Below are positions 7,650 through 64,000 of a stretch of 64,000 nucleotides of DNA, in pieces (position 1 is the stretch's first letter; each line of letters begins with the position of its first letter). The stretch comes from Diphasiastrum complanatum. Lineage: Eukaryota > Streptophyta > Lycopodiopsida > Lycopodiales > Lycopodiaceae. A model generated the notes under the pieces. That model searched no databases and was not told where the DNA came from. It saw only the letters and a program-made list of their open reading frames with translations. The translations under genes were made by a program, and so were the position numbers. Location: positions 23,033,390 to 23,097,389 of the forward strand of contig CM055102.1 in the NCBI GenBank assembly GCA_029204225.1. The letters are read 5' to 3'.

Positions 7650-9061
7650 ATAGCTTGTGCACTCTGGTTACGGTGGATACGGTTTTCGGAATGTAGTTGT
7701 TGTGGTTTGTTACGGGTTGATTTCGGTTTGGGATGGTCGATGGAGGTCGATTATGGTGGAGGATTGCGGTTGTGGTATAGTCATTGGAAGCCGTAAGATG
7801 GCTGTGGTGACTGTCTATGAAGGTGGGGACGTTTGTTTGCGGGTTGGCAGTAGGGAAGGTTTCATAGTGGGCCGTAAGATGGCTGATGTGGTGGTCAGGA
7901 GTGGTTGATGGAGGTCGTTGAAGGTCGTAAACTGTAATATTGTGGTCTATTGTGGTTTGTGATGGTCAAGGAAGGATGTGCATCAGACGGAACTTGAGTG
8001 AGGCTCCGGCTCCGATTGAAATTTGACAGGGATCCGGCTTCGGTTGAGATTGAAAGTAGGCCGTCAGTTGAGAGGTGACTATGGCCTCCGGTTGAAATTC
8101 AAGAGCAGTGCTCCGGTTGAGATCTGAACAGAGTGCTTCGGTTGAGATCTGAGGAGAGTTCTTCGGTTGAGATCTGAGTGAAATGCTTCGGTCGAAATCT
8201 GACAGAAGTGCTTCGGTCGAGATCTGAACAGAGTGTTTAGCTCGAGATCTGAGTAGAGTGCTTTGGTCGAGATTGGACTGAACACTCCGGTTGAGATGTG
8301 AGCGACATGCTCCGGTTGAGAATTGATGGCAATGCTCCGGTCGAGTTTTGACTGAGCACTTCGATTGAGATGCGAGCAAAATGCTTCGGTTGAGAATTGA
8401 TGGCAGTGCTCCGGTCGAGTTTTGACTAAACACTCCGGTTGAGGTGCGAGCGAAATGCTCTGGTTGAGAATTGATGGCAATGCTCCGGTTGAGTTTTGAC
8501 TGAACACTCCGATTGAGGTGCGAGCGAAATGCTCCGGTTGAGAATTGATGGCAGTGCTCCGGTCGAATTTTGACTGAGCACTCCAGTTGAAATGCGAGCA
8601 AAATGCTCCGGTTGAGAATTGATGGCAGTGCCTCGGTTGAGTTTTGACTGAACACTCCGGTTGAGGTGCGAAAGAGCGCTCCGGCTGAAATTTGGATTGA
8701 AGGGTCCGGTTGAGATGTGACAGCTTCCTTCGGTCGAGATGTCAAAGAGATGTTCGTTCTAAATGTGGAGTTATGACTCCGTTCGAGTTTTGAACGATTA
8801 GCGGTGGTTGAGGTGTAATTCAGGACATGTTAGGATCGTGAAGTTGTGGTTCGGTTGAGAGGTATGAGATAATAGTACCGTCCAGACTTGAGTCGTGGAG
8901 CTTGTCGTGGTGAGGATCGTGAGACTTTGGTTGAGAAACGAGCAGGACTTCGGTAAAGACCGAAGTGATGAGCTCGGCAATGAATGTGTAGGAGCTCTCA
9001 GACGATGGTGTTGCAACACATGAGATTGAGATATGGCTTGGTTAAACATGTGTGTAGCTGT
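7650..9061 (-). repeat. Gypsy copy 1 leader with minisatellite array
   Basis: Between gag and the PBS is a GT-rich stretch (7,650-7,960) followed by a degenerate array (about 7,966-8,760) whose plus-strand core is CGGTTGAGATCTGA. Around 8,100-8,250 the period is 25 bp. From about 8,280 to 8,660 three variant monomers form a higher-order unit of about 75 bp (aacactccggttgag / aatgctccggttgag / gtgctccggtcgag). The minus strand, the sense strand of the element, stays open for 259 codons (8,745-7,966), probably because the period is a multiple of three. I see no known protein. Confidence 0.8.
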
Positions 9062-19490: not shown

Positions 19491-19504
19491 TAGCAACGAC
19501 GCCA
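19491..19504 (-). other. Primer-binding site, tRNA-Asp type (copy 2)
   Basis: The minus strand reads TGGCGTCGTTGCTA. One change from TGGCGCCGTTGC is consistent with decay of a tRNA-Asp complementary site. It lies 2 bp from the LTR end (…GACAGATTC read from 19,507). Confidence 0.75.
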
Positions 19505-19506
19505 AA

Positions 19507-41390: not shown

Positions 41391-42565
41391 GGATAGTTGG
41401 TATCGAGTGCACTTCTGACATCTTATCCTAGGATCATCAAGGACCATATGGATGGAGGATTTCTCAGTGTTCCAAGAGTTGGATACTTCAATGTTGAATG
41501 GCACTTAGCAGGTGATTTGAAAACATTGAAATGCATAGATAGTGTCTCTCATGGTGCTACATATAAACATCCTTGTTTGTACTACATGAAAATGGCAGAA
41601 AATGTAACTAGAAGTACAAGAATTACTAGAGAAAATGCAGATCCAAACTGGAAGCCTTATTGCCTATTCCCTTCAAAAATGTGCATGTTTGCACTCTTCA
41701 TGTAGAAGTTAGGATAATAGAGAAGCTCGTTTATATTCATATAGTTTTTGCTTGGAATAGTAAGCCAACATCATCAACGAAGGAAGCTATTAGTCGATTA
41801 GAAGATGTTTTATCGAAAGCATGACTTCATATATGGGACATGTCAAAATACAAAAAGATGAATATGCCTACTAATCCAAGCATAGGAGGAGCAAAAGCAC
41901 ATCGATTCCTATCAAACCACACAAGTAAGGCTTCTAATATTTAACACTTAGTCTGGAAAGATATTGTTGCTGCCACTCAGGACTTGGGGGTGACCGACAA
42001 AACTAGATTACTGAAAGTTGATGTATGGAGGAAGCTTGACAGTATGATTAAAATATCAAGAAAAGACAAATCTTCTAATATTGATAAGAGAGCTCTACAA
42101 AAGACTTGTGTCGATTTTGTTGATGCAGTATCAAAAGCATGGGGAGAAGATCACATCACTTATTACATGGTTAGTATTCATGCTCACAGCTGCTTTGAAT
42201 TCAACTATATATTTTGATCCAAGCATAAGACTGACATTACGATTTTGACATGTGCAACACATACTAAGAGATCATACATCATTTTTTGCAAACACATATA
42301 AAAGCCTAAGTGTCTGGTCATCACAAGGGATGGAGAAGTCACATTGGCAAGCAGGGGCAACATTTCATTGAAATACACAACATGGAGGAACCAATGAAAA
42401 ACGAAACTATATTTGTCAATTATTTCAGTGGTTCTATCGCAGAGTTCAGATTCGATAGATTACCAAATCTTCAAATTATGACAAATTTAGAAAAGCTTGC
42501 AACTCATTGAGCAACAAAGAAGTTAGAAATTTAGAGCAACAAAGATGCTACAAAATTTTATTCAT
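41391..42565 (+). pseudogene. Gene A: intron-bearing, transposase-like relic (C-terminal part)
   Basis: A plus-strand frame from 41,397 reads GYFNVEWHLAGDLKTLKCID, NWKPYCLFPSK and, after a shift, HVCTLHVEVRIIEKLVYIHI. It continues with SIGGAKAHRFLSN, then VWKDIVAATQDLGVTDKTRL and WGEDHITYYM, ending at a donor site (ATG|GTTAGT, about 42,168). After a short intron (acceptor TATAAAAG, about 42,307) the frame resumes SLSVWSSQGMEKSHWQAG, NTQHGG and CQLFQWFYRR. Several stops and a frameshift disable it. The HITYYM … QGMEKSH … HGG block looks like a conserved C-terminal region of DNA-transposon-derived proteins, but I cannot name the family with certainty. The N-terminus was lost where the LTR element ends (41,375). 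Confidence 0.5.
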
Positions 42566-42587
42566 AATATTCAGTATATACAAAGTT

Positions 42588-44111
42588 TCATTTAGTGGGA
42601 TCTGATATTTCGTCTTGTCCAATTGTTGTGCTATCATGCAGTAACTCTCTGCTTGCATAAGCATCCAGAAGATGCGCATTGTCCTTGTTACCACTCAATT
42701 CTATAAACGTTGCATACAATGAATAATGGGAACTCCTTAATGGTACATTTCCATCTACAAATCCTAATATGTTCAAAACATACAATCTCTTTTAAAAAAA
42801 TTATTTTATTTGCTTTAGCAAAGTTATGTCCACCTAGTTAATAAGATAAGGCTTTCACAGCCATTATCAGAGTCTCTCCAACTGGACTAAGTTTGGAATG
42901 AGCAACACAAATTTCATTTTTCTGAAAGTGCCTCAAGTAGTGGCCAAGACCACTACCCCTGTGGAACGATGATGAATGTTGTCTGAAGCCCCCTTGACTA
43001 GTAGCAAAGTCGTCGATCACAAGTGAATTATGCATAACAAAATTGGAGCTCTTAGTTTATAAAACTCAATAGAACACATACATATGATAAACTTACAGTA
43101 AAACTGCTAAACTTATGCATTCTTCATTATCTGCTGCAACTAGATCGAGATGATCTATATTGTGACCCCCTATTCAAGAAGAGTCATCTGCAAATTTCAC
43201 TACCGATGGACGAGGGAATCCCAGTTGGGCCTGGAAGGAAATAAATTTCTCTTCAGATGGCAAAATTTGTTGGCATGATCATGAACATTTGAAAAAGCCA
43301 TCAACAAACATTCCTCACTAGTCAGAATACCTTCTTCATCATCATAGTCAATGCCCAGCACCATGTCGATTTTAAAATCAACAAGGTTAGAGAATTCAAA
43401 AATGGTGCACAATAGACAAAGAATCTCATCCTCCTGATAATCGAAAAAAACGCACAGATCTGTAGTTGTAATATATGCTTCATTAATATAATATTTCAAC
43501 AAATCAAAGAAGCATTTGGAATGTACATCAACAATTTTTTTCTCAATATTGGCATTGGAGTCAATGAAGACATCTCTCAACTTATCAGTATCTACACTCA
43601 TATAGTCAGTGTCTTTATCAGGAGTATCCACCAAGAAATGACTGATATCCTTTATGGAAGGTTTAGTAGTGGAGAATGAAGGGATCTCAGTTTTAGAAAT
43701 TGATGTATCTAACTCTTCTGGGATCTGCACTAACAAAAAAAACACAAATCTGGTTTGATACTTGCGATAATGATATTTTTGTTTACATATATTACATTAA
43801 GTGAAATTCTTAAATTGGTCAAAAATTTTAGTGTACATCTTGTCTAGTTGTTGCTTATAATGTGGAAAACTATCTACAAGGTTAGTGAAATGCATAAACG
43901 ACAAATTACCCAAAGATATTAGAGGGATATTGATTATATCCCTGAATCTGACATATTGGTCATAAAAAACATTTGGACTCTATTATGTTGTATTGAACAC
44001 ATGTAAAAAAGGCTAGAAGAGGGACTTGAAGTACTCTATGAACTCAGTTATACCAAACTCAGTGAGAAATCTGGACAAGGACTCCCGACTAGGATCAAAC
44101 GAGGAAGCCAT
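42588..44111 (-). pseudogene. Gene B: unidentified multi-exon gene relic
   Basis: The ATG at 44,111 opens MASSFDPSRESLSRFLTEFG and ITEFIEYFKSLF; stop codons follow, then the same frame continues FRDIINIPLISLGNLSFMHF. A second exon starts after an acceptor at 43,725 (GTGCAG|ATCCCAGAAG) and encodes an acidic segment (VDTPDKDTDYMSVDTDKLRD, YITTTDLCVFFDYQEDEIL). Exon 3 (43,230-43,097) follows TTCCTTCCAG, reads AQLGFPRPSVVKFADDSS, and ends at a canonical GTAAGT donor. Further frames (43,035-42,838 and 42,785-42,588) would be later exons, the last ending in TGA at 42,588. No family is recognised. It converges on gene A and diverges from gene C. Confidence 0.5.
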
Positions 44112-44893
44112 TGCCTAGTATCAGTTTTGTGTGAGAGGGGACTATCCGTGAAAAAAGGAGTACATTATGCATGCACAAAACTGATATGTATGCTCTTGTA
44201 CACGTGTCGTGTTCTAGGTCACAGCAACGACAAGTCGGGCATGCATAGAACCGATATGACTGAAAATCGAGAAAGAAAGACGAAAAAAATATTTTGGGGA
44301 TCATGCCCTTTATAGTTGTTTCACACATGCAAGTCAAATGGTCAACCGACCATGTGTCGGCCTTCGATTGGCTCAAGAACGACCACACGTGCAAAACTAC
44401 ATAGTTTCCAGGTGTCAAGAACTGATTGGTCCATACATGACATGTGTCGAGGTCTCATTGGGCCACTGGACACGCACATGCGAATGCCACATGTTTATCC
44501 TTGAGCGGGTTGTATAGAACTCACACATGTGACAACACATGCGACATCTAAGGGCACAAGGTCACAAACATCGAGGTCATTTTCACTTTTTGTTCTTTAG
44601 ACTTTTGTCACATATCACTTCTTTACGCGTCCCGTTTGCTCCCTCATCGCCTTGTCTCTCTGCATGCGCACAAGAGCGATACTGCGACTGTACATATCGC
44701 TTTTGTGCGTCATTACCTCATTTGCCACTTTTTTCTTTCTCGACCCTTGCACAAGACCGATACATCTCTACATATCGCACCTCCGCAAGCCTAGTTATCC
44801 TCCTCTGATCATTGTTACTATAACCTCACACAAAACCCATACTAGCCACATGTCTAGGGTCAAATAGAATCAGAGGGATTTTTTCTCTCCTAG
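44112..44893. promoter_or_regulatory. Putative bidirectional promoter between genes B and C
   Basis: A minus-strand TATA box (CTATAAAGG, about 44,307-44,315) lies 200 bp upstream of the gene B start. Three ATTGG boxes (inverted CCAAT) stand at 44,367-44,371, 44,425-44,429 and 44,457-44,461. ACATGTG/CATGTGTC motifs recur around them. This cluster is what one would expect between divergently transcribed genes. Confidence 0.45.
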
Positions 44894-44918
44894 TATTGTG
44901 TCCACGAGTACTCCTGCT

Positions 44919-45281
44919 ATGAATCCACCATGGCAGACTAGGCATAACAAGAGCAGGTGGCTCTCTGAGATTAAGAAATATCAGAGATCCACCTTACTCT
45001 TGATACCAAGAGCCTCTTTCTATAGAATTGTCCATCAGATTACTAGGGATAATCTGGACAGTCTTGTTAGGTTCACACCTAGAACACTGCAGTGCTTGCA
45101 TGAGACTGCAGAAGACTATTTGAGCTCTTTTTTTGAAGATTCATTTTTTGAGAGATACTGTAAACTTCACAAGGGTGAACTCTCTGCTCCCAGGGATGAT
45201 CCCATTGACAGGACTAATCTTCTCACTAAGAGGCCTTGCAGGCAACCTTCCCCCAAAAGGAGTAAGAAAACCTCTACTTAG
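44919..45281 (+). pseudogene. Histone H3 (CENH3-like) domain of gene C
   Basis: From the first in-frame ATG (44,919) the frame gives 120 codons. After a short tail (MNPPWQTRHNKSR) come the αN helix (WLSEIKKYQRSTLLLIP), α1 (ASFYRIVHQITRDN), loop 1 with RF, and α2 (LQCLHETAEDYLSSFFEDS). The core residues of H3 (EI.KYQ.ST.LLI, F.R.V..I, RF, L.E.AE.YL…FED) are in register. LLIPRASFYRIVHQIT is closer to plant CENH3 (LIPxASFxRxVxxIT) than to canonical H3, and loop 1 has one extra residue, as CENH3 does. The end (KLHKGELSAPRDDPIDR) is diverged from α3, and a PKRSKK-type basic tail follows. The canonical modified N-tail is absent, unless encoded in an upstream exon. Plant CENH3 genes normally have introns inside this region; here there are none. 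Confidence 0.7.
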
Positions 45282-45299
45282 GGACCTAAAAAGGTATGA

Positions 45300-45475
45300 C
45301 GCATGGACCTCCAACATTCCTCATTTGGAGGTGATGCGATTGTAAATACAGTTGTCTTAGATATTGTGGTCGACTCAGCCACAAAAATTTTGGACAATCC
45401 TTCTGTCAACCCCTTTATTGTGAATACTACTCCTCTCCCCCCTCCTTCCATTAATCTCACTCCTTTATTATATTT
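45300..45475 (+). pseudogene. Gene C linker, left of the copia insertion
   Basis: Same frame as the H3-like domain. It reads MDLQHSSFGGDAIVNTVVLD, then SATKILDNPSV and PLPPPSINLTPLLY, and is broken by the LTR at 45,476. With the insertion and one TSD copy removed the next codons are LDSKDYLELERDISDV. Nothing here matches a known domain. Confidence 0.55.
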
Positions 45476-46144
45476 TGTTAAAAATTCACAATTCTAGCTT
45501 GACTAGTTTTGGTCATATGACTTGTAAATAGTTAGATGGTCATGATGTGGCTTGTCACATGTGCCAAATAGCATAGGATTCTATTAATAAGGATGTTCTC
45601 AAGTAGAACTAAGTGTTAGAACCTTTGGAATGAGTCCAAATTATGCTTAGATACAAGGGAGAAAAAATAGGAGCTATTTTTGGTAATTTTTGCATTGTTG
45701 AGGGATCTCCAAGATTCCAACCCTAACTTGGTAGGGATGAAAGATCCACCAAAATTAGCATTAGGGATAGGTTTAGGGCTACTCATACCTGCCCAAAACC
45801 GTGATGGATCATGTATATATAGTGATGATATCTCACCAAAATCAATCAAGCAATTTCATGTTTTTTCTCTCATAATGGTGCAATTGCTCTCTATGTTCAT
45901 AATTGTTTGAGTACTTGTGATTACTATTGAATGTAGGTCTGGTGTACAGTACTCAGACTGTGGGAGGCCGTACTTTCACACGTGTGAATCCTTCTTCAAG
46001 GATTTGGGCCATTTAGTGAGGTTCAAGAATAGATTTTTGATGGATTTTGATGGTTCAACTTGTGCTAATCTTATGAAATCATAATCTATTGTTTTCCTCA
46101 TCATTTCAAGTGTTTTAGGATCCTTATTTGCTGTAATTTTTACA
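45476..46144 (+). mobile_element. 5' LTR of intact copia element
   Basis: TGTTAAAAATTC…ATTTTTACA. It has a TATA box (GTATATATAG, about 45,812-45,822) and the palindrome TTTCACACGTGTGAA (45,974-45,988) downstream of it. Confidence 0.95.
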
Positions 46145-46157
46145 TGGTATCAGAGCC
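46145..46157 (+). other. Primer-binding site, tRNA-iMet type
   Basis: TGGTATCAGAGCC directly after the 5' LTR. Confidence 0.95.
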
Positions 46158-46954
46158 TAAAGGTTGAAATGAGCTAAATCCTTGGTTTTCATTCAATTTG
46201 ATCACAATTTTTGATCTAAATCTTGTGTAGATTGGATCTTAGCATCTAGTATTGATTCTAGAACTCAAAGTGAGTCAAATACATTGGAGATTGGTGTTGT
46301 GTGACTTCATTTGCAGGTGTTTAGGTGTCTAAAACCAGAGGCAAAGTTGAATTCAATTCACATTACCAAGATAGCAAGTTTTGCTTGCTCCAAGCATTGA
46401 TTTCTAAGCGAGTTTTGGAGGTGATTTCATAGAGGAGGCTTTCTAGCATTCAAGGAGAGGGAAGATCAGAGTTTTGGGGACTCTTCAAGGCTGTTCTAAG
46501 GTGTAGTAGGCACCTCCTAAAGTGATTTAGGTTCAGTCCAACCCTTGCTTGACTTATGCACCAAATTAGATCAATTTTTCATCATTTTTGATCATTTTTT
46601 GCTTGTGATTGGATAGTAGATTGTGTTGCATCCTCATTAAGTTCCATTTAGCTCTTTTCAAGTGATTTTGGAAGTATATTAGGTTGCTGAAATTCACTCT
46701 TGATCAGATCATTTGGAAGTTTTAATGTTCTTTATAGAAAGAGGGGCAATTCTACTAGTATTGTCTACTTCAATCAAGCAAGTGCATTGTTTCTAGTATT
46801 CTATGATTTGATTTTGTTAGAGATCATTCTTAGATCTTTATAGGAAGTCTATTACTGATCTTTTCAGGTCCCTAAGAAGTGGGATAAGATAGACCTTCAA
46901 TCAAATCAATAGAAGTAACCTTCATTTGTGTCAAGTCCTTGATTAGGAGACTAG

Positions 46955-49900
46955 ATGGCATCTATAAATGCATATCTTTTGGATACTAATGAAAGGCTCA
47001 ACAAAACTAACTATTCCATATGGAAAGTTAGAATGGAATCTATCATGATCATGCAAGATCTGATGGAAATTGTAAATGGTAAGGAGGGTGAACCTATTCA
47101 TCCTCAAGAAAAAGCCAAATACATCAAGAGGTGCAATGTTACACTACATTGCATAAAAATGAATGTTGCAAATGAACTCTTAAGAGAGGTAGGAGATTGC
47201 ACTTCAGCTCAAGATGCTTGGGAGACTTTGCAAAAGGTCTATGAATCCAAGAACCAAACTAGAATGTTAGCTTTGAAGAATGAAATCTATAGAAGCTATC
47301 AAAAGAAAGGAGAGAGTGCACATACTTTTGTCCTAAGAGTAAAGGAATTGAACAAAGAGCTAGCCTTTATAGGTGACCCTATCAAGGATGAAGAGCTTGT
47401 TCAACTCATATTTAATGGACTAAGCTTTGAATTTGACAATTTGGTTCAGGGATATGCAATTATGGGTAAGCTACCCATACTTGAAGAACTCCAAGGCACA
47501 CTCATGACCGAGGAATCAAGAAGGAGCCAAATGCAAGAGAGGATCGATAGGCTTTCCATCCAAGGTGGAGATGACCAAGCTCTCTTCACCAAAGGCAAAG
47601 GCAAGTCCAAAGGCAAAGGATCAACATTCAAGAAGTCTACAAAGCTTGAGGATCAAGAAGGACCCCCAAAGGCATCTCCATCAACCACCAAAGTCAACAA
47701 GGACAAATCAAAGGTGAAGTGCTACTATTGTAGCAAGATGGGGCATTATGCCTCGGAATGCTTCAAGAGGAAGCAAGATCAAAGCCAAGACAACATGAGC
47801 AAAGAGGAGGAGGAGGAGAGTTCACATGAGGACTCTCTCATGATGTCCATATTTTCTTCAACAAGCTTCAAAGGAGAAGATCCTTGGTGGATTGACTCGG
47901 GTGCTAGTTCACACATGACTAGTAAAAGGGAGTTTTTCTCTTCTCTCTTATCTTATGATGGACCTATAAAGTCTATCTATATAGCAAATGATGAAGCTTG
48001 TAAGATTGAAGGAGTTGGTAGCATTCCCCTTTGCTTAGGATCTTCCAAAAAGATCAACATAGAAGGTGTTTTGTACATTCCCACAATAACAAAGAATCTA
48101 CTAAGTGTTGGCCAAATGGTAGACAATGGTTTCAATTTTGACTTTGCTTCAAATGAATGTTTCATCAAGAAGAAGGGTAAGATAGTGGCTAAGGGCACTA
48201 GACTTGGCAAACTTTATAAGCTGGATGCATTTGTGGATACTAATGTTGTCATGTTGGCCGAGAAGAGCAAGATATCTACCTTTACTTTATGGCACAAAAG
48301 ACTTGGACATGTCAACTCGGGTTCCATGGAGGCTATGATCAAGGAGGAGTATGCTTTAGGCCTAACAAGGTCTATTGGGAAGGAAGACAAGGTTTGTGAA
48401 GCTTGTGCCTTATCCAAGGCACATAAGAAGGTGTTTCCTAACTCCATCACAAAGTCATCTCATCCTCTTGAACTCATACACTCGGATGTGCACATTGCTA
48501 GCACCAAATCTAATGGAGGTTCATCCATGTTTTTAACCTTCATTGACGACTACTCAAGATATTGTTGGGTGTTCTTACTTTCCCTCAAGTCTCAAGTATT
48601 TGATACTTTTGTAAAGTTCAAGTTGTTTGTGGAAAAGCATCATAATCATAGCATCAAGATTCTTAGAAGTGACAATGGTGGAGAATTCATCTCCAATGAG
48701 TTCAAGGCCTTTTGTGAGGAGGAAGGGATCAAGAAAGAGACTTCTTGTCCTTACACTCCTCAACAAAATGGAGTTGCTGAAAGAAGGAATAGAACATTAT
48801 GTGAATGTTCTAAGGCTTTAAGATTAGATGCTTGTTTGCCCAAATCCTTTTGGGGTGAGTCTCTTGTATGTGCAAACTACTTGATGAATAGGGTGTCTTG
48901 CAAAGCAATTGAAGGCAAAACTCCTTATGAGATGTTGTATGGAAAGAAACCCAATCTTGATCACTTGAAAGTTTTTGGGTGTATATGTTATGTGCATGTG
49001 CCATTGGAAACAAGAACCAAGGAGGATCCATCTTCCACAAGAGGGATCATGCTTGGATATGCAAGCTCAAGCAAGGGCTACAAAGTCTATCTCCCATCCT
49101 TGAACAAATTTGTTGTTTCAAGGGATGTCATCTTTGATGAACATCATATGCATATGCTTGAAGAAGGCTCAAGTGCTCCAACAATCAAGAAGAAGATGGC
49201 CGAGGAGCAAGATCTTGGTTTTGAGGAGGAGCTCATGGAGGAGCAAGCACCAAACCCACCTATCACACCAAGGAGATCTTCAAGGGCAAAAGTGGAGCCA
49301 TCAAGGCTCACATATCAAGGCAAAGAACAGCAAGTTGAGGGTATCTCATCCACTTCTTATGCTTTATCTAGTTTTGAAGAACCGTCTAATGTTGAAGATG
49401 CATTGAACTCCAAAGAATGGTATAAAGCTATGTTGGATGAGTATGATGCCTTGATTGAGAATGAAACTTGGTTGCTTGTTGAGAGACCTCAAAGGAATGT
49501 AATAGGATGCAAGTGGGTCTTCAAGCTTAAGTTGAATGCAAATGGGAGTGTTAACAAACATAAAGCAAGATTAGTTGCAAAAGGTTATGCTCAAGAGAGA
49601 GGGATAGACTATGAGGAAACTTTTGCACCCGTGGCCAAGATGGTCACAATAAGACTAATCATTGCACTTGCATCACATTTTGGATGGATTCTATGTCAAA
49701 TGGATGTCTCTAATGCTTTCTTGAATGGTTTTTTGGAAGAGGATATCTATATGGAGCAGCCACAAGGGTTCATCAAGCATGGAATGGAGAACAAAGTATG
49801 CTATCTCCAAAGAAGCATCTACGGCTTGAAGCAAGCCTCGAGATCTTGGAATTCAAGACTACATTGCTATCTTATTTCACTTTCTTTTGTTCAAAGTGAA

Positions 49901-50923
49901 TATGATCCCACTCTTTACATTAAGTTTGATGATGTTGGTATTGTACTTTTACTCATTTATGTAGATGACATCATCATTAGTGGAAATAGTGTTGATGGTA
50001 TTGAAAAAATCAAGATAGATCTATCCTTAGAGTTCAAGATGGTAGATCTAGGGTGTCTTCACTTCATCTTAGGCATAGAAGTACTTAGAGGGTCTGATTT
50101 TATCTTTATAAGTCAAGTAAACTATGCTCAAAGTCTTTTGAAGAAGTTTAAGATGGAAGTATGCAAAAGTGTTGACACACCAATGGAGCAAGATGTAAAA
50201 GTGCCAAATGAAGATGATGAAAGATCCTTCATGGACATCACTTTGTTTAGACAACTTATAGGTTACTTAATGTGGATCACTATAACTAGACCAGATCTTA
50301 GCTTTAGTGTATGTAGGTTGAGCCAATCCATGCAAAAGCCATTGAATATCCATTGGAAAAAGACTAAGAGGATTCTAAGATACATCTCGGGTACATTGGA
50401 TTTTGGGATTCTATATAGAGGAGATGTGATTAACCTTCATGCATTTAGTGATTCAGATTTTGCAGGGGACAAGAGGGATAGGAAATCAACAAGTGCCTAT
50501 TCAACTTTCATAGGAGAAGGTGTGGTTTCATGGCTTTCAAAAAAGCAAGAAACTATATCTCTATCTTCAACCGAGGCTGAGTACAAAGCTTTGACAACCA
50601 CTACAAAGGAGGTACTTTGGATCAAGAGATTATTGGTGGAACTAAAGATCATGGATTCAGAGGAGGCACCAATCATCTACAATGACAATATATCAGCCCA
50701 ACACCTTGCATCTAACCCAATCTTCCATGCAAGATCTAAGCACATTGAGATATGCCATCACTTTGTGAGAGAAATGGTGCAAGCCAAGGAGATTGCTTTG
50801 GAGCATGTTCCAAGCAATGAATGTGTAGCTGATCTACTTACTAAACCACTTCAAAAGACACCTTTTATGAAGTTCAGATCATCACTTGGAGTGATTAGTA
50901 AAGCAATGATTGAACCAAGCTAG
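46955..50923 (+). CDS. Copia Gag-Pol polyprotein, 1,322 aa, intact
   Basis: One uninterrupted frame encodes everything the element needs. Gag (UBN2 fold) starts at LNKTNYSIWKVRMESIM near residue 15, and the zinc knuckle CYYCSKMGHYASEC spans residues 256-269. The protease active site WIDSGASSHMT has its Asp at 314. GAG-pre-integrase (LWHKRLGHVNS) is followed by integrase with catalytic Asp 511, Asp 573 (RSDNGGEF) and Glu 609 (NGVAERRN), the last two 35 residues apart as in retroviral-type integrases. RT has YVDD at 1002-1005, and RNase H has HAFSDSDFAGD (Asp 1166) and LSSTEAEYKAL. The length is normal for a plant copia. The ATG at 46,955 precedes the conserved gag start; the leader is 0.8 kb. 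The stop at 50,921 is only 14 bp from the 3' LTR. Confidence 0.97.
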   Translation: MASINAYLLDTNERLNKTNYSIWKVRMESIMIMQDLMEIVNGKEGEPIHPQEKAKYIKRCNVTLHCIKMNVANELLREVGDCTSAQDAWETLQKVYESKNQTRMLALKNEIYRSYQKKGESAHTFVLRVKELNKELAFIGDPIKDEELVQLIFNGLSFEFDNLVQGYAIMGKLPILEELQGTLMTEESRRSQMQERIDRLSIQGGDDQALFTKGKGKSKGKGSTFKKSTKLEDQEGPPKASPSTTKVNKDKSKVKCYYCSKMGHYASECFKRKQDQSQDNMSKEEEEESSHEDSLMMSIFSSTSFKGEDPWWIDSGASSHMTSKREFFSSLLSYDGPIKSIYIANDEACKIEGVGSIPLCLGSSKKINIEGVLYIPTITKNLLSVGQMVDNGFNFDFASNECFIKKKGKIVAKGTRLGKLYKLDAFVDTNVVMLAEKSKISTFTLWHKRLGHVNSGSMEAMIKEEYALGLTRSIGKEDKVCEACALSKAHKKVFPNSITKSSHPLELIHSDVHIASTKSNGGSSMFLTFIDDYSRYCWVFLLSLKSQVFDTFVKFKLFVEKHHNHSIKILRSDNGGEFISNEFKAFCEEEGIKKETSCPYTPQQNGVAERRNRTLCECSKALRLDACLPKSFWGESLVCANYLMNRVSCKAIEGKTPYEMLYGKKPNLDHLKVFGCICYVHVPLETRTKEDPSSTRGIMLGYASSSKGYKVYLPSLNKFVVSRDVIFDEHHMHMLEEGSSAPTIKKKMAEEQDLGFEEELMEEQAPNPPITPRRSSRAKVEPSRLTYQGKEQQVEGISSTSYALSSFEEPSNVEDALNSKEWYKAMLDEYDALIENETWLLVERPQRNVIGCKWVFKLKLNANGSVNKHKARLVAKGYAQERGIDYEETFAPVAKMVTIRLIIALASHFGWILCQMDVSNAFLNGFLEEDIYMEQPQGFIKHGMENKVCYLQRSIYGLKQASRSWNSRLHCYLISLSFVQSEYDPTLYIKFDDVGIVLLLIYVDDIIISGNSVDGIEKIKIDLSLEFKMVDLGCLHFILGIEVLRGSDFIFISQVNYAQSLLKKFKMEVCKSVDTPMEQDVKVPNEDDERSFMDITLFRQLIGYLMWITITRPDLSFSVCRLSQSMQKPLNIHWKKTKRILRYISGTLDFGILYRGDVINLHAFSDSDFAGDKRDRKSTSAYSTFIGEGVVSWLSKKQETISLSSTEAEYKALTTTTKEVLWIKRLLVELKIMDSEEAPIIYNDNISAQHLASNPIFHARSKHIEICHHFVREMVQAKEIALEHVPSNECVADLLTKPLQKTPFMKFRSSLGVISKAMIEPS

Positions 50924-50926
50924 ATA

Positions 50927-50937
50927 GTGAGGAGGAG
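50927..50937 (+). other. Polypurine tract
   Basis: GTGAGGAGGAG, directly before TGTTAAAAATTC of the 3' LTR. Confidence 0.9.
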
Positions 50938-51618
50938 TGTTAAAAATTCACAATTCTAGCTTGACTAGTTTTGGTCATATGACTTGTAAATAGTTAGATG
51001 GTCATGATGTGGCTTGTCACACGTGCCAAATAGCATAGGCTTCTATTCATAAGGATGTTCTCAAGTAGAACTAAGTGTTAGAACCTTTGGAATGAGTCCA
51101 AATTATGCTTAGATACAAGGGAGAAAAAATAGGAGCTATTTTTGGTAATTTTTGCATTGTTGAGGGATCTCCAAGATTCCAACCCTAACTTGGTAGGGAT
51201 GAAAGATCCACCAAAATTAGAATTAGGGATAGGTTTAGGGCTACTCATACCTGCCCAAAACCGTGATGGATCATGTATATATAGGTGATGATATCTCACC
51301 AAAATCAATCAAGCAATTTCATGTTTTTTCTCTCATAATGGTGCAATTGCTCTCTATGTTCATAATTGTTTGAGTACTTGTGATTACTAATGATTATAGG
51401 ATTGAATGTAGGTCTGGTGTACAGTACTCAGACTGTGGGAGGCCGTACTTTCACACGTGTGAAGCCTTCTTCAAGGATTTGGGCCATTTAGTGAGGTTCA
51501 AGCATAGATTTTTGAGGATTTTGATGGTTCAACTTGTGCTAATCTTATGAAATCATAATCTATTGTTTTCCTCATCATTTCAAGTGTTTTAGGATCCTTA
51601 TTTGCTGTAATTTTTACA
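50938..51618 (+). mobile_element. 3' LTR of intact copia element
   Basis: As the 5' LTR, plus a 12-bp duplication-like insertion near 51,395. TATA at about 51,274 and TTTCACACGTGTGAA at 51,449-51,463. Confidence 0.95.
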
Positions 51619-52263
51619 TATTTGGATTCTAAAGATTATCTAGAATTGGAGAGAGATATATCGGATGTTATGGATAATATCGGCATGCCAATTCTCTTCT
51701 AAATTGAAGAAATTGGTTTAAGTCTTAACTTTAGAATCTCTGACTGTATTCAGATGAAGGATAGAAGGGCTTCTATTAGCGATCTAGTGATAGAGGCGGG
51801 TCTCCCTGTGCTGCAATTTGATATTGCAAGGGATTCAATGAAAGAAATGTGTCTTCTCAACAATTTCTTTCTGTAGGCCATCAAGGATGACAACGACACT
51901 TTGTCACACTATCTCCTTGGTGGATGCTCACCAGCTAATGATGCCATATCATACCAAGTATGTTTATTTCTCTACTTGTTTGTATGTTTAAGTTTACTTG
52001 TAATCACTGTATCATATATCTAATAGAATGCGGGTCTCCCTCTGCTGCAATTTGATATTGCGAGGGATCCAATGAAAGAAATGTGTCTTCTAAACGATTT
52101 CTTTCTGCAGGCCATCAAGGACGACAACGACACTTTGTCACATTATCTCCTTGGTGGATGCTCACTAGGTAATGATGCCATATCATACCAAGTATGTTTA
52201 TTTCTCTACTTGTTTGTATGTTTAAGTTTATTTGTAATCACTGTATCATATATCTAATAAAAT
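51619..52263 (+). pseudogene. Gene C, exon to the right of the insertion, with exon-intron duplication
   Basis: After the TSD (51,619-51,623) the frame reads LDSKDYLELERDISDVMDNI, then MKDRRASISDLVIEAGLPVL and MKEMCLLNNFFL. It goes on AIKDDNDTLSHYLLGG to a donor CAA|GTATGT at 51,958. A 234-bp segment (51,796-52,029), including the end of this exon and part of the intron, is repeated in tandem at 52,030-52,263. In the second copy the internal TAG of the first (51,874) is CAG. Confidence 0.6.
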
Positions 52264-52281
52264 GCTTTTTTGTTTTTGCAG

Positions 52282-52801
52282 TGAACACTGGAGCTTGAAT
52301 TAGTCTCTATACAAAATAACTGTAAATAATGTAGTAAATCTTTTTTGTGTGAAGATGAATTTTGCCCGTAACACACATAAAGATATTGACTCACTGATGC
52401 TAACAATTTGTAAATACTTTCTAGTAGAGAATGCCACGGTAGGGGCATGTGAAATCGTAAGCATTGAGGTAACCATTGAACACTTCTTGCATATTTTTAT
52501 TAATTATTTTTGTTTAGTGTCAGTTTCTTCCTCCCATTATTAATCAGTTGATCGTATTGTAGACATTCCAACAAAATGACTCATTTAGTTGTGCATGATG
52601 GTGTACTCTTTATAATGCAAAGTTAGTTTTTGAGTGGTACAATGTTCAAGAGGATGTTGATATTTCGAAGGTGAGTTATTTAGTCTCCTTTCTCTTTAAT
52701 CTGCATCTAATATATTGTTTATTATACATATTCATCTAATATATTGTTTATTGTAGTTTGCCCTCGGTGATTATACAGCTGGCGAAGTGTACAAGTTTTG
52801 A
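52282..52801 (+). pseudogene. Gene C, Ulp1/SENP-like (C48) cysteine protease exons
   Basis: Block 1 (52,282-52,468) begins after TTTTTGCAG with EHWSLN, matching the catalytic HWSL of Ulp1-type proteases, and later has HKDIDSL, matching the catalytic Asp (DSL). It ends at GAG|GTAACC. Block 2 (52,563-52,670, after ATTGTAG) reads TFQQNDSFSCA, stop, WCTLYNAKLVFEWYN: the Gln and Cys are six residues apart, as in Ulp1 (Q…DCG), though CG is CA. It ends at AAG|GTGAGT. Block 3 (52,757-52,801) ends FALGDYTAGEVYKF then TGA. The His-Asp spacing (34) is longer than usual, and the join to the previous exon is off by one base. Such enzymes cut SUMO or related peptides. Confidence 0.5.
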
Positions 52802-53189
52802 TAGGAGCTCATCTTTAGTCTTTTGGCCAGGTCAATAGCTAGACCAAAGACTTCTCCAGGGCCATCTAAGCCAGATGATGTTCAGATTTTAAATGAGATT
52901 GGGGAATTTGTAAATACCCAAGCTGAATAGATATACATAGTTTCATACTGATATAGAAACATAAAATACAGAAAAGAATTATTTGCACAATTGTACAAAA
53001 TTTTCAAATTCAGGTGATATTTTATCAAATACAGATATTAGTTTATACAATTGATTGTATGACTTGTCATTGTTCTTCTACAATGTTGCTATATGTAGAA
53101 ATATCTTTGCAGAGTGTTGTGTTTTCCTATCTTTTTCGTATCTGCGTGAAAGATAAGCAACTTGTTAATTTGGTAATTCTTTAAATAGA

Positions 53190-54311: not shown

Positions 54312-54456
<145 letters not shown>

Positions 54457-55056
54457 TCTATTGTCCAAAATAGCCTAGATTGGCAAGATTTGCTTGAGAG
54501 TAGTTTTTACTTCATCTTATCTTCATTCCAGCTTTGTGAGGGAGTGATAGAACTGTGGTTACAAGTCCATCTGTTTGATTAGAAGTCAACATTTGAGTGA
54601 AACACTGCAAGTTAGAAACCTTTGTGAGTTTCAAGCTCAAACCATTAGAGGAGTTTTGAGCTCCAAAAGGACCCTTTAAAAATTCGTGTAGGATGTAGTT
54701 TATATTATTAAAATATTATAGCATTAATACTTTTGACTTGCCAAAATCTTTTAATCGTAGCCCAAAAGTATGTCATCTAACATATCATTGGAAAGCCCTT
54801 GTTGAGCGCTTTCCAATGCACAAAACTTCGCTAAATTTGAACTTACCACTAAAAAGTTATGCCAGTTTTAGTGTGGAATCAAAATGTGGACTCAAAAAGT
54901 TACGTTACGTAGATTTCAAATTTGAGTGTTTTGATTGGTCCATGTGTAAGAAAAAATTGAGAAAAAATATAAAAAGAATCTTTACAAAGGGTCTTTTTTA
55001 GATTTAGAACTCCTCTAATGAAATCTATATCTTGTGTGTAGAATTTCACTAGTAAG

Positions 55057-55701
55057 ATGGGATCTGCTGGAGCATACCTTCTAGAAGCTAGTGAGAGGTT
55101 AAATTCTACCAATTATGCTATTTGGAAAGTGAGGATGGAGTCACTCATGGTGCTCCAGGATCTCTATGAGTTTCTGATTGATGATGGAGATCATCTACTA
55201 AGAATTTTGGCATTTTGTATAGAGGGACTAATCTTGGCTTAAGAGCCTATAGTGACTCGGATTTTGCAGGTGACAAAGTAGATAGAAGATCAACAAGTGC
55301 TTTTTCCACCTTTCTATGTGATGGAGTAGTATCATGGCTTTTTAAAAAGCAAGATACCATCTCTTTATCTTCCACAGAATCCGAATACAAGGCCTTGACA
55401 GCAACATGCAAGGAGGTCTTGTGGCTCAAAAGGCTATTGGTGGAGCTTCGTGTCATGGAGGAGGAGATTACTATCATCTATTGTGACAACCAATCAGCCC
55501 TAATCACTTGCAACTGATCCTGCATTCCATGCAAAAAGCAAACACATCGAGATTGCTCATCATTTCGTGAGGGAGAAAGTGCAAGTCAAAGAGATCAAGC
55601 TCCAACATGTGCCATCATCAAGTTGCTTGGCTGATTTGTTTACTAAATCTTTACCTAAAGATTCATTTGTCAAGCTTAGATATTCAATTGGAGTGATTTA
55701 A
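55057..55701 (+). pseudogene. Internally deleted copia: gag start joined to RNase H
   Basis: The ATG at 55,057 begins MGSAGAYLLEASERLNSTNY, AIWKVRMESLMVLQDLYEFL, homologous to the start of the intact Gag. Near 55,187-55,205 the sequence jumps to FGILYRGTNLGLRAYSDSDF, the start of RNase H, equivalent to about residue 1,151 of the intact polyprotein. RNase H then runs through RSTSAFSTFLCDGVVSW and LSSTESEYKALTATCKEVLW to HHFVREKVQVKEIKLQHVPS and KLRYSIGVI plus TAA. About 3.3 kb (rest of gag, protease, integrase, RT) is missing, and the join and a site near 55,510 shift the frame. No PPT or 3' LTR follows. Confidence 0.85.
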
Positions 55702-55819
55702 TTATCTTTCCATTTACTTGATGTTCTTCTAATTTATAGAATCAAAAAATGTATTTTATAAGATTTTCAATATCAAAAAAAATATTATTACAATCGTTGT
55801 AATTGAGCTCACCATATTC

Positions 55820-56062
55820 TCATTTGTATAAATAAGTTATTTGAAGTGGTTGGCCGACTACTTTGAACATTCCATCATTATAATAATTTCTTGCTAATCT
55901 TACCCGATATGGACGAGGAAGATACATTTTCTTCATCATCACTTGAGAAAAAGCTTCTTTAACTATCCTAAAAAAAGTGGAATATGCATTTTTGTTGATT
56001 CTAGAATAATCACATGTACCTTGTATCACATTTGCATCCAAGTAAATTTGAACCTTATTCAA
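55820..56062 (-). pseudogene. Unidentified minus-strand frame
   Basis: An 80-codon frame reads MNKVQIYLDANVIQGTCDYS, YSTFFRIVKEAFSQVMMKKM and YLPRPYRVRLARNYYNDGMF. Basic and aromatic residues are spaced like a real protein, but I recognise no family. Weakly supported. Confidence 0.3.
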
Positions 56063-56470
56063 AATAGCCTCTGCAATTTCGTTTTACATTTTTTCAAAGC
56101 AAGCATTTTTCATCATTGCCTTTGTTGACTTTCTTGGTAAAACATGACTTAAAGATGATCTAATGCATGAACAATCTATTAAATAGTTTTTTGCCACCAA
56201 ACATGATCTACAACAAACATATAAAACTCAAATTAATTTTAATAAATTGATAATGAATGTTATGAAATGCAAATGAAACTTAAATGACAAATACAAACCA
56301 AATAAATGATTTATAAGAAAACATACTTAAATGTTCGAATCCTTTTTTTTCTAATTGCCACTATGTGTAGAGAAGTCATCAATACTCTTCATCGGTACTC
56401 TCTTTCTTTTCCTTTTCATCATTGCCTTTTGGGTAACTTGTATATCAACCACAAATTTTAAACTTTTCGA

Positions 56471-58996: not shown

Positions 58997-59589
58997 TTCA
59001 ATGATCTCCTAAGCAAAGCTTTTGTACTATAGATCTTCTATTGATTGAAATCCAAGATCAATTGATGAAAACTAAGGCAAAGAGGCGAAGTTACATGCAT
59101 ACATTCATAACTGAAGTAGTTTCACATGTGTGGAAATATGTACTTCTAGAACTAAGTGTTGGAGGATGCAAGCTATGCACAAAGTGGCTGCGTCCGAAAA
59201 GGCACCAAAAAGAGTGCATTCGTCCCATAAGCAAATGGAGACTATAACAGAATCCACATATAAGCTCATTGTAGACAATGTACCCTTGTCCCCTGGTACA
59301 AACCCTTTTGGGGTCAAAAGGGAATAATGGCGGGTGGCTAGGCGGTGGGGATGGGATCCCGCACGCGGCCCGTAGGCATAAGGTAGTAGTCTGATGCTAG
59401 TAAGTAATCAAGACGAAATATAGACAACAAGTGCGCCTGCGTGCGAGACGAGCTTTGTGATCAGGATCCATAGAGGTCCAATTGTTCGCTAGTAAAGCGA
59501 GACGATTACTCGTGAGAGAACCGTGTTTCTCTCACACCAATGCACTGCGTGGATTTGCATGCAGTGCTTAAAGAAAGCAGAGGAAGATC
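58997..59589. other. No gene recognised
   Basis: Short frames only. A hairpin-forming GCACTGC…GCAGTGC lies at about 59,543-59,568 and TTTCACATGTGTGGAAA at 59,120-59,136. 59,330-59,480 is GC-richer than the surroundings. Confidence 0.45.
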
Positions 59590-61455
59590 TGTGGTGACTT
59601 GGTTTCAACAATTTGTTAATGATTTTAGCTTTTTATTGCTAAATATTCAGCCTTTGCTTTTCCGTTGTGTATAGCCTAATCATAAGTTGCATTCAGTGGG
59701 GTGTGACTTAAATTTGTTTTGTGGCATTAAGGCAGCCCTTTTACTACTTATAAATTTGGCATATGGTTGTGCCTAGTTGTTGCTCTTTTAAGTTATAAAA
59801 GTCATTGGTTTAAGAAGGCACGAACCTTCGTCAAGCTGTTCTTAAGGTTGTAGTCATATTCTAGAGCCCAGTCGGCATTCTCGCATTATTCGGCTTTGTG
59901 TGAGAGTCAAGTTTCAATGCCAGTTTTAGAGGCTGACTATAACCTGCCATGTTCGCAATTTTTTTTGGGCAAACTACTATTTTCAAAGGCAAGGCACTAC
60001 AAATCTGAAGGGCCATTGTCGCACATTTCTCACTATTCGGGATTTTTGGAGCCTCGTTCATTCTTTAGTGCCTACCTCGAAGCACCTCCACGTAGCCAGA
60101 GACTCTCACCTTCGCATTTCTTAAGGACAGTTGTCGCACTTCTTAAAGGCAGCTTTGCACTTTTCTCTCTCTATCTTCGGGTTCTTGTAGGGCAGGCTTT
60201 GCTCTTCATCTCCAGCTAGCCATCGTGCTTCTTTTGGAGCGCAAACTAGCAATTAGGGTTGCTTGATCTTATGATCATTCTCCAGGATGCAACCATATAC
60301 AAAGATAGATTTCAGATGGCATATGCAACGACAACCATCTTCGTTCTTTAGCGACAGTTTACCAGTAGCCAACGACAGTTCCAAAGGCAGTTAGGGCAGC
60401 CCACGCGTTTCCATCTCAAGCGGTTGTTTGCAGGTGTCATGGCTATTTGCAATGGGAAGCGACCTGTTTCACCACTCTGTTGGGCTGTTTTCAAACAGTT
60501 TTGAGCTAGTGGCCCTCATTCATCCTTCATATGGTTGGTTTCCTTGCACAAGGCAGCGACCTTGATTCCAACTATCGGCTATTTGTTGGCAGCATTCCAT
60601 TGGCCCATGGGCAGTCATTTCTAGATGTCAGATATCTATTTGTTCTCTCTTTGCAGACAGTTATCAAAGCCCATAGCCTCTAGCACGTTCTCTCTCTGGC
60701 TATTAGTTGTCAGCTTATGCCATTGTAAATCATTCAGACATAATGTTGAACAGAGGCTCAAAAGCTCTGTTGGTGCTTTAATGAAGATTTACTGCTTTTT
60801 CTATTTATCTACAAGTTCAGAACCTTTGTGTTCTCAGATTCTTGTATAGAGGTGTAGCAATCCCTCTTCTTTGCAGTGTCTAGACTGTAATGAATATATC
60901 TTTGTACTCTGCAAATGGTGAATACAGAATCACACACAACTTGTTTTTATTGTGAATACCTTCTGTGCTTTTCAGGGTGATTCATTTTGGTAATAGGAAG
61001 TTTATGGCACTGTATTGTTTGTGCCTATACACAATGACTTGGACTGGAATTGATTAGTGAAGTGGCTCTAGCCTTCAATCTTTTGATTTGTGCAGATCAT
61101 AGGAGTTGGATTCATGATAAGCTACTGTCAAGATAACGGAAACACTGTGTAGCTTTTCCTTTTGCCAAAGTATTTGCTTTCTTGAGTTCACTCCCATTTG
61201 AATCTGAAAACCATAATGAAGTATTCAGTATTTTTCTCCTGGGTGTTTGTTTTTTTTTATACGGTTGTACTAGCAGCTCCTTGTGGAAACATCTATTGAT
61301 GACCAGTTTGCAATCACTTCTTCTCTCCACTCTATTCATTCTTAGTTATTTCTAGTTTTGCACTGATAATGACAGTATTAGTCTTTTTATTAACGATACC
61401 CATTTATACTACAAATATCAATCATTTTGTTGTTGGTATGCCGCGACATATACCA
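59590..61455 (+). mobile_element. 5' LTR, about 1.87 kb
   Basis: Starts TGTGGTGACTTGG and ends near ATATACCA before the PBS. The interior is transcript-like in composition but has only short frames. Confidence 0.8.
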
Positions 61456-61459
61456 ATTT

Positions 61460-61479
61460 TGGCACCGTTGCCAGGAAGC
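61460..61479 (+). other. Primer-binding site, tRNA-Asp type
   Basis: TGGCACCGTTGCCAGGAAGC. It differs at few positions from the tRNA-Asp complement TGGCGCCGTTGCCGGGGA used by many plant gypsy elements. Confidence 0.8.
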
Positions 61480-62197
61480 AATGGATGTTCTGTCATTATT
61501 CTGATTCTTGTTTATATTTTTTAGATTCACAGGTTATTGTTCTAGTTCTTCAAGTATTTCAGAAGGGGAAGAGTGAAATCTGAGTTTCGACCACCCTGAC
61601 TCGTCATTTCACTTTTGATTTTCTATTTCCGATTTTTGGTAGAGTTCTTAAATTCGTTTACAGTTTGTAAAATGTGTTTAGTTCTTGTTATGTACAGTCT
61701 GAAGATTATGTTGTTATGTCCAATAATCTCTTGGTTTTCCGTAAGCAAATTTTGATTCATGCTTTTCCAAGAGACGGTTCTATTCTATTTTGTTTTGGCT
61801 CTCTAATTACAAGATCTTTAAGCTAAAATAAAAGCTTGTTCTAAGGCTTTGGTGCTATCCAAGATGTGCTGATGCTGTCTAAAGACTATTGCTGACAAAT
61901 GCTGATCTTTCTATGTTCTATTCATAGTTAACGACTTGTTGGTGCTACTGTCCAAAATCACATTATTTAAATGATGCAGAGCCAAGTTTTTAAAGCTGAT
62001 TTTCTGTTCTGCATATGCTCATAATTATGTCAAATGGTGCTGACTTTTGGAAGTAATATATGCTGAAGTTTTACTTGTTGAAGACTGTACAATCAAGGCT
62101 TTGGCTTGTCAAAGGCTGCAGACTGTGGCAAGTCAGATTCTTTGCAAAGCTTCGACAATGGTTCCTATTCTCAATGTTTACAAGCCGCTGCACACTT
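61480..62197 (+). other. Short non-coding interior of the long-LTR element
   Basis: No frame of note; T-rich. It presumably carries only packaging and replication signals. Confidence 0.6.
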
Positions 62198-62210
62198 GAG
62201 GAGGGGAATA
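62198..62210 (+). other. Polypurine tract
   Basis: GAGGAGGGGAATA directly before the right LTR (TGTGGTGACTTGG). Confidence 0.8.
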
Positions 62211-64000
62211 TGTGGTGACTTGGTTTCAACAATTTGTTAATGATTTCGGCTTTTTATTGCTAAATCTTAAGCCTTTGCTTTGTCATTGTGTATAGCCTAA
62301 TCATAAGTTGCATTCAGTGGGGTACAACTTAAATTTGTTTTGTGGCATTAAGACAGCCCTTTTACTGCTTATAAATTTGGCATATGGCTGTGCCTAGCTG
62401 TTGCTCTTTTAAGTTATAAAAGTCATTGGTGTAAGAAGGCACGAACCTTTGTCAAGCTGTACTTAAAGGTTATAGTCATATTCTAAAGCCCAGTCGCCAT
62501 TCTCGCATTGTTCGGCTTTGTGTGAGAGTCAAGTTTCAATGGCAGTTTTAGCGGCTGAACCCGCCATCTTTGCAATTTTTTTTAAGAAAACTGCTATTTT
62601 CAAAGGCAAGGCACTACAAATCTAAAGGGCCATTGTCGCACATTGCCCACTATTCAAGATTTTTGGAGCCTCGTTCATTCTTTAGTGCCTACCTCGAAGC
62701 ACCTCCACGCAGCCAGAGACTCCCACCTTCGCATTTCTTAAGGATAGTTGTCGCACTTCTTAAAGGCAGCTTTGCACTTTTCTCTCTCTCTCTCTCTTCG
62801 GATTCTTGTAGGGCAGGCTTCGCTCTTTATCTCCAGCCAACCATCGTGCTTCTTTTGGAGCGTGAACCAGCAGTTAGGGCTGCTTGATCTTATGATCATT
62901 CTCCAGGATGCAACCATATACAAAGATAGATTTCAGATGGCATATGCAATGACAACCATCTTCGTTCTTTAGCGACAGTTACCAGTAGCCAACGACAGTT
63001 CCAAAGGCAGTTTGGGCAGCCCACGCATTTCCATCTCAAGCGGCTGTTTGCAGGTGTCATGGCTATTTGCAATGGAAAGCGACTTATTTCACCACTCTGT
63101 TGGGCTGTTTTCAGACAGTTTTGAGCCAGTGGCCCTCATTCATCCTTCATACAGTTGTTTTCCTTGCACAAGGCAGTGACCTTGAATTCCAACTGTCGGC
63201 TATTTGTTTGCAGCATTCCATTGGCTCATGGGCAATCATTTCCAGATGTCAAATATTTATTTGTTCTCTCTTTGGAGACAGTTATCAAAGCCCATAGCCT
63301 CTAGCACATTTTCTATTTGGCTATAAGTTGTCAGACTTATGCCATTGTAAATCATTCAGACACAATGTAGAATAGAGGCTCAGAAGCTTTGTTGGTGCTT
63401 TAATGTAGATTTACTGCTTTTTCTATTCATCTACAAGTTCAAAACCTTTGTGTACTCAGATTCTTGTATAGAGGTGTAGCAATCCCTCTTCTTTGTAGTG
63501 TCTAGACTGTAATGGATATATCTTTGTACTTTGCAAATGGTGAATACAGATAATGTAAATCTGAGTGTTCTGAATCACACACAATTTGTTTCTATTGTGA
63601 ATACCTTATGTGCTTTTCATGGTGATTCATTTTGGTAATAGGAAGTTTATGGCACTGTATTGTTTGTGCCTATACACAGTGACTTGGACTGGAATTTATT
63701 AGTGAAGTGTCTCTAGCCTTCAATCTTGTGATTTGCGAAGATCATAGGAGTTAGATTCATGATAAGCTACTGTCAAGATAACGGAAACACTGTGTGGCTT
63801 TCACTTTTGCCGAAGTATTTGCTTTCTTGAGTTCACTCCCATTTGAATATGAAAACCATAATGAAGTATTCAGTATTTTTCTCCTGGGTGTTTGATTTCT
63901 TTATATGGTTGTATTGGCAGCCCCTTGTGGAAACATCTATTGATGACCAGTTTGCAATCACTTCTCCTCTCCACTCCATTCCTTCTTAGTTATTTCTGGT
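62211..64000 (+). mobile_element. 3' LTR (incomplete at window end)
   Basis: Alignable with 59,590-61,350 throughout, with scattered substitutions and small indels (for example GTAAATCTGAGTGTTCTGAA added near 63,560). About 100 bp are expected beyond the window. Confidence 0.85.

Follow-up and report, generated by a model that had tools for sequence, protein, structure and literature searches.

A decayed copy of a repeated, inverted-repeat-bounded element in Diphasiastrum complanatum with a predicted gene that fuses an H3-like histone fold with a C48-like domain

The histone-like and C48-like parts of the locus

The stretch of Diphasiastrum complanatum DNA analysed here, referred to as the window, comprises 64,000 nucleotides (assembly GCA_029204225.1, contig CM055102.1, positions 23,033,390 to 23,097,389 of the forward strand) and contains a locus where a histone H3-like reading frame is followed by exon-like blocks with motifs of the Ulp1-type cysteine proteases (family C48). 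The original prediction saw in it the relic of a gene fusing a CENH3-like histone fold to a Ulp1-like protease. Based on comparison with relatives in the window's own assembly (1.74 Gb; a single genome), the gene belongs to a repeated, probably mobile element and does not stand as a single host gene: the locus appears to be one decayed copy of an element that is present many times and ends in terminal inverted repeats (TIRs), probably a DNA transposon, and very probably carries its H3-like and C48-like fusion gene. In the predicted gene, exon 1 would encode the histone part and the beginning of the C48-like domain, and three short exons would finish that domain.

The H3-like part of exon 1 lies at 44,850-45,278 on the plus strand, as do all parts of this gene. 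Its frame starts with an ATG at 44,850, placed by a match between leaders that is described below, has an in-frame TAG at 44,865, carries the domain at 44,919-45,278 and reaches a TAG at 45,279. The proposed histone fold was borne out by a Pfam match to PF00125 above the curated cut-off (E = 7.5e-13, 49.2 bits against 26.4), with an alignment ending at profile position 98, so that the end of the fold is lost in this copy. A PDB search with the same piece returned 168 distinct sequences at E ≤ 0.001, the best being fission yeast cnp1 (8.2e-10). The linker of exon 1 follows in the H3 frame at 45,279-45,475 with two stops, in a region where other copies continue stop-free. It is interrupted by a copia insert (45,476-51,618, plus strand) with long terminal repeats (LTRs), an open reading frame (ORF) of 1322 codons at 46,955-50,923 and a TATTT duplicated on its two sides (45,471-45,475 and 51,619-51,623). 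The insertion was recent, as the 1322-codon frame is still open and the LTRs are identical in 661 of 681 aligned columns.

Beyond the insert, a block at 51,625-51,957, here called block D, forms the end of exon 1 and leads into the C48-like domain; it was recognized by its low stop count and by its place after the H3 part in other loci. When the copia element and one TATTT are removed, the H3 frame continues into block D without a shift, which confirms the single reading frame claimed at the outset. Over the 177 codons of this frame that lie outside the H3 ORF there are 4 stops, compared to a shuffle mean of 11.4 (P = 0.009), and the signal comes mainly from block D (2 stops in 111 codons, P = 0.015). 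The H3 ORF of the window was also considered as a complete gene, and this was dropped because the frame runs on in other copies. A tandem duplication of 234 bp (51,796-52,263, plus strand, 95% identical) covers the end of exon 1 and the start of its intron; ten of the twelve differences between its units fall in the first 140 bp, on the exon side, and two on the intron side.

The three C48-like exons were placed by a path spliced at GT-AG borders and by the relatives: E1 with a His-Trp pair at 52,283-52,468, E2 with the Q-x5-C motif at 52,563-52,670, and E3 at 52,757-52,927. The HW and Q-x5-C motifs of the original prediction thus lie in GT-AG-bordered blocks that keep a single phase, whereas its DSL motif is not at the place of the catalytic Asp. 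In the predicted spliced reading, His and Gln stand 70 and 6 residues before Cys, the same distances as in SENP2.

Within the window, the case for a histone and C48 fusion has several weak points. The left linker alone has 2 stops in 65 codons, which is indistinct from chance (P = 0.30). Neither the pieces of the C48-like part nor concatenations of its exons gave a Pfam C48 match, and no C48 protein was matched in the PDB. With a home-made C48 profile the score of the window copy coincided with the median of the shuffles (862 of 1688 scored, and 873 of 1742 in a second run). C48 motifs in the right order were not clearly above chance, since shuffles contained them in 440 of 5000 cases and window tiles in 35 of 418; a stricter spliced path appeared in 28 cases among 1500 shuffles and in 6 among 94 tiles. 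From the window alone, the C48 identity is therefore not clearly beyond chance and the protease half would be unproven. Of the two Pfam families, PF00125 is significant in the window itself, but PF02902 (Peptidase_C48) only in the relatives, and it is because of these relatives in the same genome that the protease half becomes significant.

The fusion in less damaged copies

Searching the genome with the H3 piece gave at least 279 matches (150 of 5602 first-look candidates were scored), and the C48-bearing tail gave at least 377 exon-level matches (134 of 10104 candidates scored); scans of bacterial and archaeal contigs and of viral contigs yielded no relatives. Twenty loci, L001-L020, were taken from the H3 search, with the window as L001, and a further ten, L021-L030, were picked because their frames are long and open, with 9.8 kb of each retrieved. 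Exon 1 is uninterrupted in eight of these ten copies, as a frame that measures 334-471 codons from stop to stop and runs from before the histone to near a motif IPYHT, towards or into the start of the C48-like domain, although exon 1 of L025 diverges from the other copies at its very end. In L024, exon 1 matches PF00125 at E = 5.1e-24 (85.3 bits) over profile positions 24-122 of 122, and the H3 fold is thus complete to the third helix. As to the other half, in L026 the tail of exon 1 and exons E1, E2 and E3 join in phase across GT-AG introns into 272 residues without a stop, while its exon 1 frame is broken further upstream. PF02902 recognizes this tail with E = 1.4e-7 (32.0 bits, cut-off 20.7), starting at residue 118, inside exon 1, and a PDB search with the tail at E ≤ 10 returned two Ulp1 proteases, 1euv (0.0012) and 6dg4 (0.0067), and nothing else.

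These frames bear on whether the locus instead held two adjacent genes of the same element, an H3-like protein ending at 45,279 and a separate C48-like gene. Such an arrangement would fit the stops at 45,279 and 45,297 in the window copy, which are followed by a same-frame ATG at 45,303, as well as a linker that cannot be told from chance in that copy and is less constrained than either part, with a ratio of nonsynonymous to synonymous substitution rates (dN/dS) of 0.53. We regard it as quite improbable, since no stop separates the histone from the start of the C48-like domain in the eight open copies and the C48 profile match of L026 begins within exon 1.

Of the 24 loci that match any L026 exon, 11 cover each of the four pieces to 80% or more, L003/L004 and L014/L015 being nearly identical pairs among them. 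A PF02902 match at E ≤ 0.016 was obtained in eight of the 11 copies, and the cut-off was reached in three, namely L026, L028 (1.0e-7, 32.5 bits) and, exactly at the cut-off, L023 (3.9e-4, 20.7 bits). The remaining five were L025 (0.0011), L004 (0.0015), L003 (0.0019), L015 (0.0099) and L014 (0.016). In an alignment of six copies, with stops read as X, the His, Gln and Cys are invariant, and their spacing is that of Ulp1/SENP SUMO proteases, to which PF02902 belongs (as in SENP2, 70 residues from His to Cys and 6 from Gln to Cys). The place of the catalytic Asp (His+17 in SENP2), in contrast, holds Lys or Asn in all six. As this Asp is not kept, the domain is named C48-like here and not an active protease, and SUMO binding is at least as likely a function as cleavage.

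The missing Asp also weighs against the fusion as first drawn, as do three copies without any C48 match (L021, L024 and L030), the five that stay below the cut-off and the lack of a fully intact copy among the ten fetched. The L024 piece lacks the His-Trp pair, and E2 of L030 is broken. A profile built from the six copies was also weaker against the PDB (E = 0.33 and 0.36), with 1euv and 6dg4 as the sole hits at E ≤ 1. Single-sequence structure predictions were of low confidence (mean predicted local distance difference test scores of 42.4 and 39.9). If the downstream exons were an unrelated domain with chance motifs, the weak or missing C48 scores, the window copy at the shuffle median and the unkept Asp would be expected; we nevertheless consider this highly improbable, given that the PF02902 score exceeds its cut-off in L026 and L028 and equals it in L023, that nothing in the PDB other than two Ulp1 proteases matches the L026 tail at E ≤ 10, and that His, Gln and Cys keep the family spacing without variation. 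Taken at the level of sequence, the copies support one gene that joins an H3-like fold at the N-terminus to an Ulp1-related C48-like domain at the C-terminus. The proposed fusion is thus supported for both domains in the relatives, except that the catalytic Asp expected of a protease is missing.

The assignment of the histone half to CENH3 did not hold up equally well. H3.1 outscored Arabidopsis and maize CENH3 and human CENP-A in all six less damaged copies, and all of the PDB matches of L024 that were listed (60 of 176) are named histone H3 or histone-domain protein. Only in the window copy are the scores about equal (cnp1 53.5, AtCENH3 52.0 and H3.1 50.8 bits), with cnp1 as the best PDB match. 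CENH3 was thus rejected as the identity of this half, which is best called H3-like on the present comparison. With histone H3 it shares a fold that is complete with the third helix in the less damaged copies and that is free of introns, as it is in H3.1 genes according to the parts of PMC4940616 and PMC8603533 consulted. It differs from H3 in lacking the canonical N-terminal tail, in a long C-terminal extension with the C48-like domain and, by eye, in a loop 1 that is one residue longer. Some fold residues are common with plant CENH3; in the same sources, however, plant CENH3 genes have introns, whereas the fold of the element has none.

We estimated selection from pairwise dN/dS medians, using ten copies whose exon 1 frame extends over 180 codons or more. 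The H3 fold gave a median of 0.14 (43 pairs, range 0.07-0.93), the linker one of 0.53 (40 pairs, range 0.16-2.07), block D one of 0.37 (25 pairs, range 0.09-0.61) and E1 one of 0.38 (9 copies, 33 pairs, range 0.04-1.2). As the pairs are non-independent and the copies were picked for open frames, these values argue less strongly for constraint than they may seem to; the telling point is the contrast between fold and linker inside the same copies. The H3 fold appears to be under purifying selection.

The element, its partner gene and their shared promoter region

The right end of the element is sharp in six copies, being GATATTGAGAACTCCTCTAATG or one mismatch from it, with differing flanks beyond. 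The inverse of the GATATTGAGAACTCCTCTAATG end opens the left end, over 22 bases without a mismatch, in four of nine left loci. Two copies have both ends, which match over about 35 bp: L031/L024 (9,016 bp) and L036/L026 (12,448 bp). By eye, the left flank of L036/L026 lies in a retrotransposon integrase, and a retrotransposon-like frame of 591 codons lies inside the copy. Against a DNA transposon stand the lack of an exact target-site duplication of 2-12 bp in both of these copies, each of them decayed, and the fact that no transposase was recognized, ten other ORF pieces being without a significant Pfam match. In view of the latter, the element is called TIR-bounded and probably mobile. The window copy itself is flanked by no inverted repeats beyond chance. 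At 54,643-55,020, 378 bp lie between both forms of the family's inverted repeat (6 and 3 mismatches in 26), which is probably a member of this family with an internal deletion and not surely the end of the window copy. Opposite in orientation and adjoining, the minus-strand stretch 55,682-56,227 has a 36% protein match (E = 1e-38) to a left-hand ORF of a further copy (L034:5125-5940) and is, as judged from this match, a more distant relative of the element.

Upstream of the H3-like part, a divergent and decayed partner gene, G, was located at 43,203-44,111 on the minus strand, with 4 stops in 303 codons compared to 20.7 in shuffles. Further parts of it were found at 42,190-43,047 (minus strand) by tblastn with ORFs of L034 (70-76%), and blastn identified a left part of the element at 41,417-42,502 that is 84% identical to other copies, the matches found ending at 41,417. 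Gene G matched no Pfam family and had no other significant match, and its assignment to a known family was dropped for this reason.

Genes G and H3 are separated by a putative shared divergent promoter region (44,112-44,849), delimited by matching leaders and a 13-bp motif repeated on both strands. The leaders of both genes contain CTCACACAAAACNNATACTAG, at 44,115-44,135 on the minus strand and 44,825-44,845 on the plus strand (0.02 expected), and the inverted alignment of the two leaders scores 53, compared to a maximum of 39 in 200 shuffles. The motif CACAARACYGATA, allowing up to two mismatches, has seven of its ten places in the window within this region, on both strands, a count that is partly circular because the motif was chosen from the region itself. 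The best 13-mer of the region occurs in 6 copies, compared to at most 3 in 300 shuffles; this is not the highest count of the window, as six of 84 tiles reach 8-12, mostly by tandem or simple repeats as judged by eye. The tile from 8,361 has one 13-mer in 12 copies. In ten of ten copies, the kilobase preceding H3 holds the motif 3-8 times, compared to 0-2 times for the remaining 8.8 kb.

Over the 30 loci, window included, block D follows H3 in 23, while E1 after it and a divergent G upstream are each present in 21, counts to be read with the coverage of L001-L020, most of which span only about 3.3 kb, and with L002 at a contig end. Wherever parts are present, the order of G, H3, D and E1 is constant; L009, L010, L016 and L017 have the H3 piece alone. 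By its sequence, the element carries at least two divergent genes sharing a putative promoter region with a repeated motif.

The recurrence of this layout and of the promoter motif across diverged copies also bears on whether the element took up a host histone-C48 gene on a single occasion and carries it as a useless passenger. Plant elements do capture pieces of host genes, Ulp1 included (PMC13317346, consulted in part), and every copy examined has some damage. A passenger would not be expected to keep a low dN/dS in the H3 fold as compared to the linker of the same copies, nor a recurring layout, and we consider this explanation unlikely.

Elsewhere in the window, ORFs of short repeated peptide units derive from tandem repeats at 7,966-8,745 and 18,951-19,505 (minus strand), a long GA dinucleotide run occupies 54,316-54,452, and at 59,580-64,000 a segment of about 2.6 kb is directly duplicated, in blocks 91-95% identical.

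Known element systems and a possible role

Ulp1-like genes in plant transposons had been described by 2006 (cited in PMC6117577), and a recent review still calls the precise function of the Ulp1 domain in them unknown (PMC13317346, as far as excerpted). Among known systems, the carriers of KIU (Kaonashi ULP-like) resemble the present element in having an Ulp1/C48-type domain in a multi-gene plant element, according to the accessible parts of PMC13317346 and PMC6117577, which link that domain to the recognition of short motifs and to a loss of methylation in related elements; they are described there as Mutator-like elements (MULEs) without TIRs. The present element, in contrast, has inverted repeats, no Mutator domain was found in the stretches scanned, and its C48-like part comes as a fusion with a histone fold; a KIU-carrying MULE or VANDAL was therefore rejected as its identity. 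The word 'histone' occurs 0 times in the available texts of these two papers on KIU elements. The grapevine CACTA-ULP elements and Ginger1, with a C-terminal Ulp1, likewise have an Ulp1 domain in DNA transposons (portions of PMC2528002 and PMC2836005), but there it goes with a transposase, whereas the present element pairs it with a histone fold; the available Ginger text (PMC2836005) has 0 occurrences of 'histone'. Judged by titles and the starts of abstracts, none of the papers listed by full-text searches, with subscription papers and repeat databases outside their scope, describes a fusion of a histone with Ulp1/C48.

We put the probability that the locus holds an element gene with a histone and C48-like fusion and some chromatin or SUMO role at roughly 0.8. 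The role in SUMO-linked chromatin control is what we infer, and the mechanism that follows is tentative. The histone half would pair with H4 or with histone chaperones and so bring the protein onto chromatin, where it would perhaps be guided to the element's own repeated promoter motif, a natural target. The C48-like half might then bind or remove SUMO on chromatin, by which SUMO-linked silencing would be weakened; alternatively, the protein could serve to steer where the element inserts. As the closest precedent we see the VANDAL group that carries KIU, which, according to the sections of PMC13317346 at hand, recognizes short motifs in related elements and induces the hypomethylation of these elements. 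It is possible, though doubtful, that a mobile-element family makes its own chromatin component in this manner, an H3-like histone tethered to a SUMO-pathway domain, which would enter or block nucleosomes at the copies of the element and thereby let it escape silencing or choose insertion sites.

The fusion to an apparently constrained H3-like fold points to the nucleosome as the site of action and makes the question of the Ulp1 domain testable. As the family is abundant in the genome, expression and methylation data of the species are open to immediate examination. The fusion could let mobile DNA act on host chromatin. The gene would also represent a relative of H3 that evolves inside a mobile element, which would bear on the origin of histone variants; if the family does make its own chromatin component, a histone variant would have evolved to serve a selfish element.

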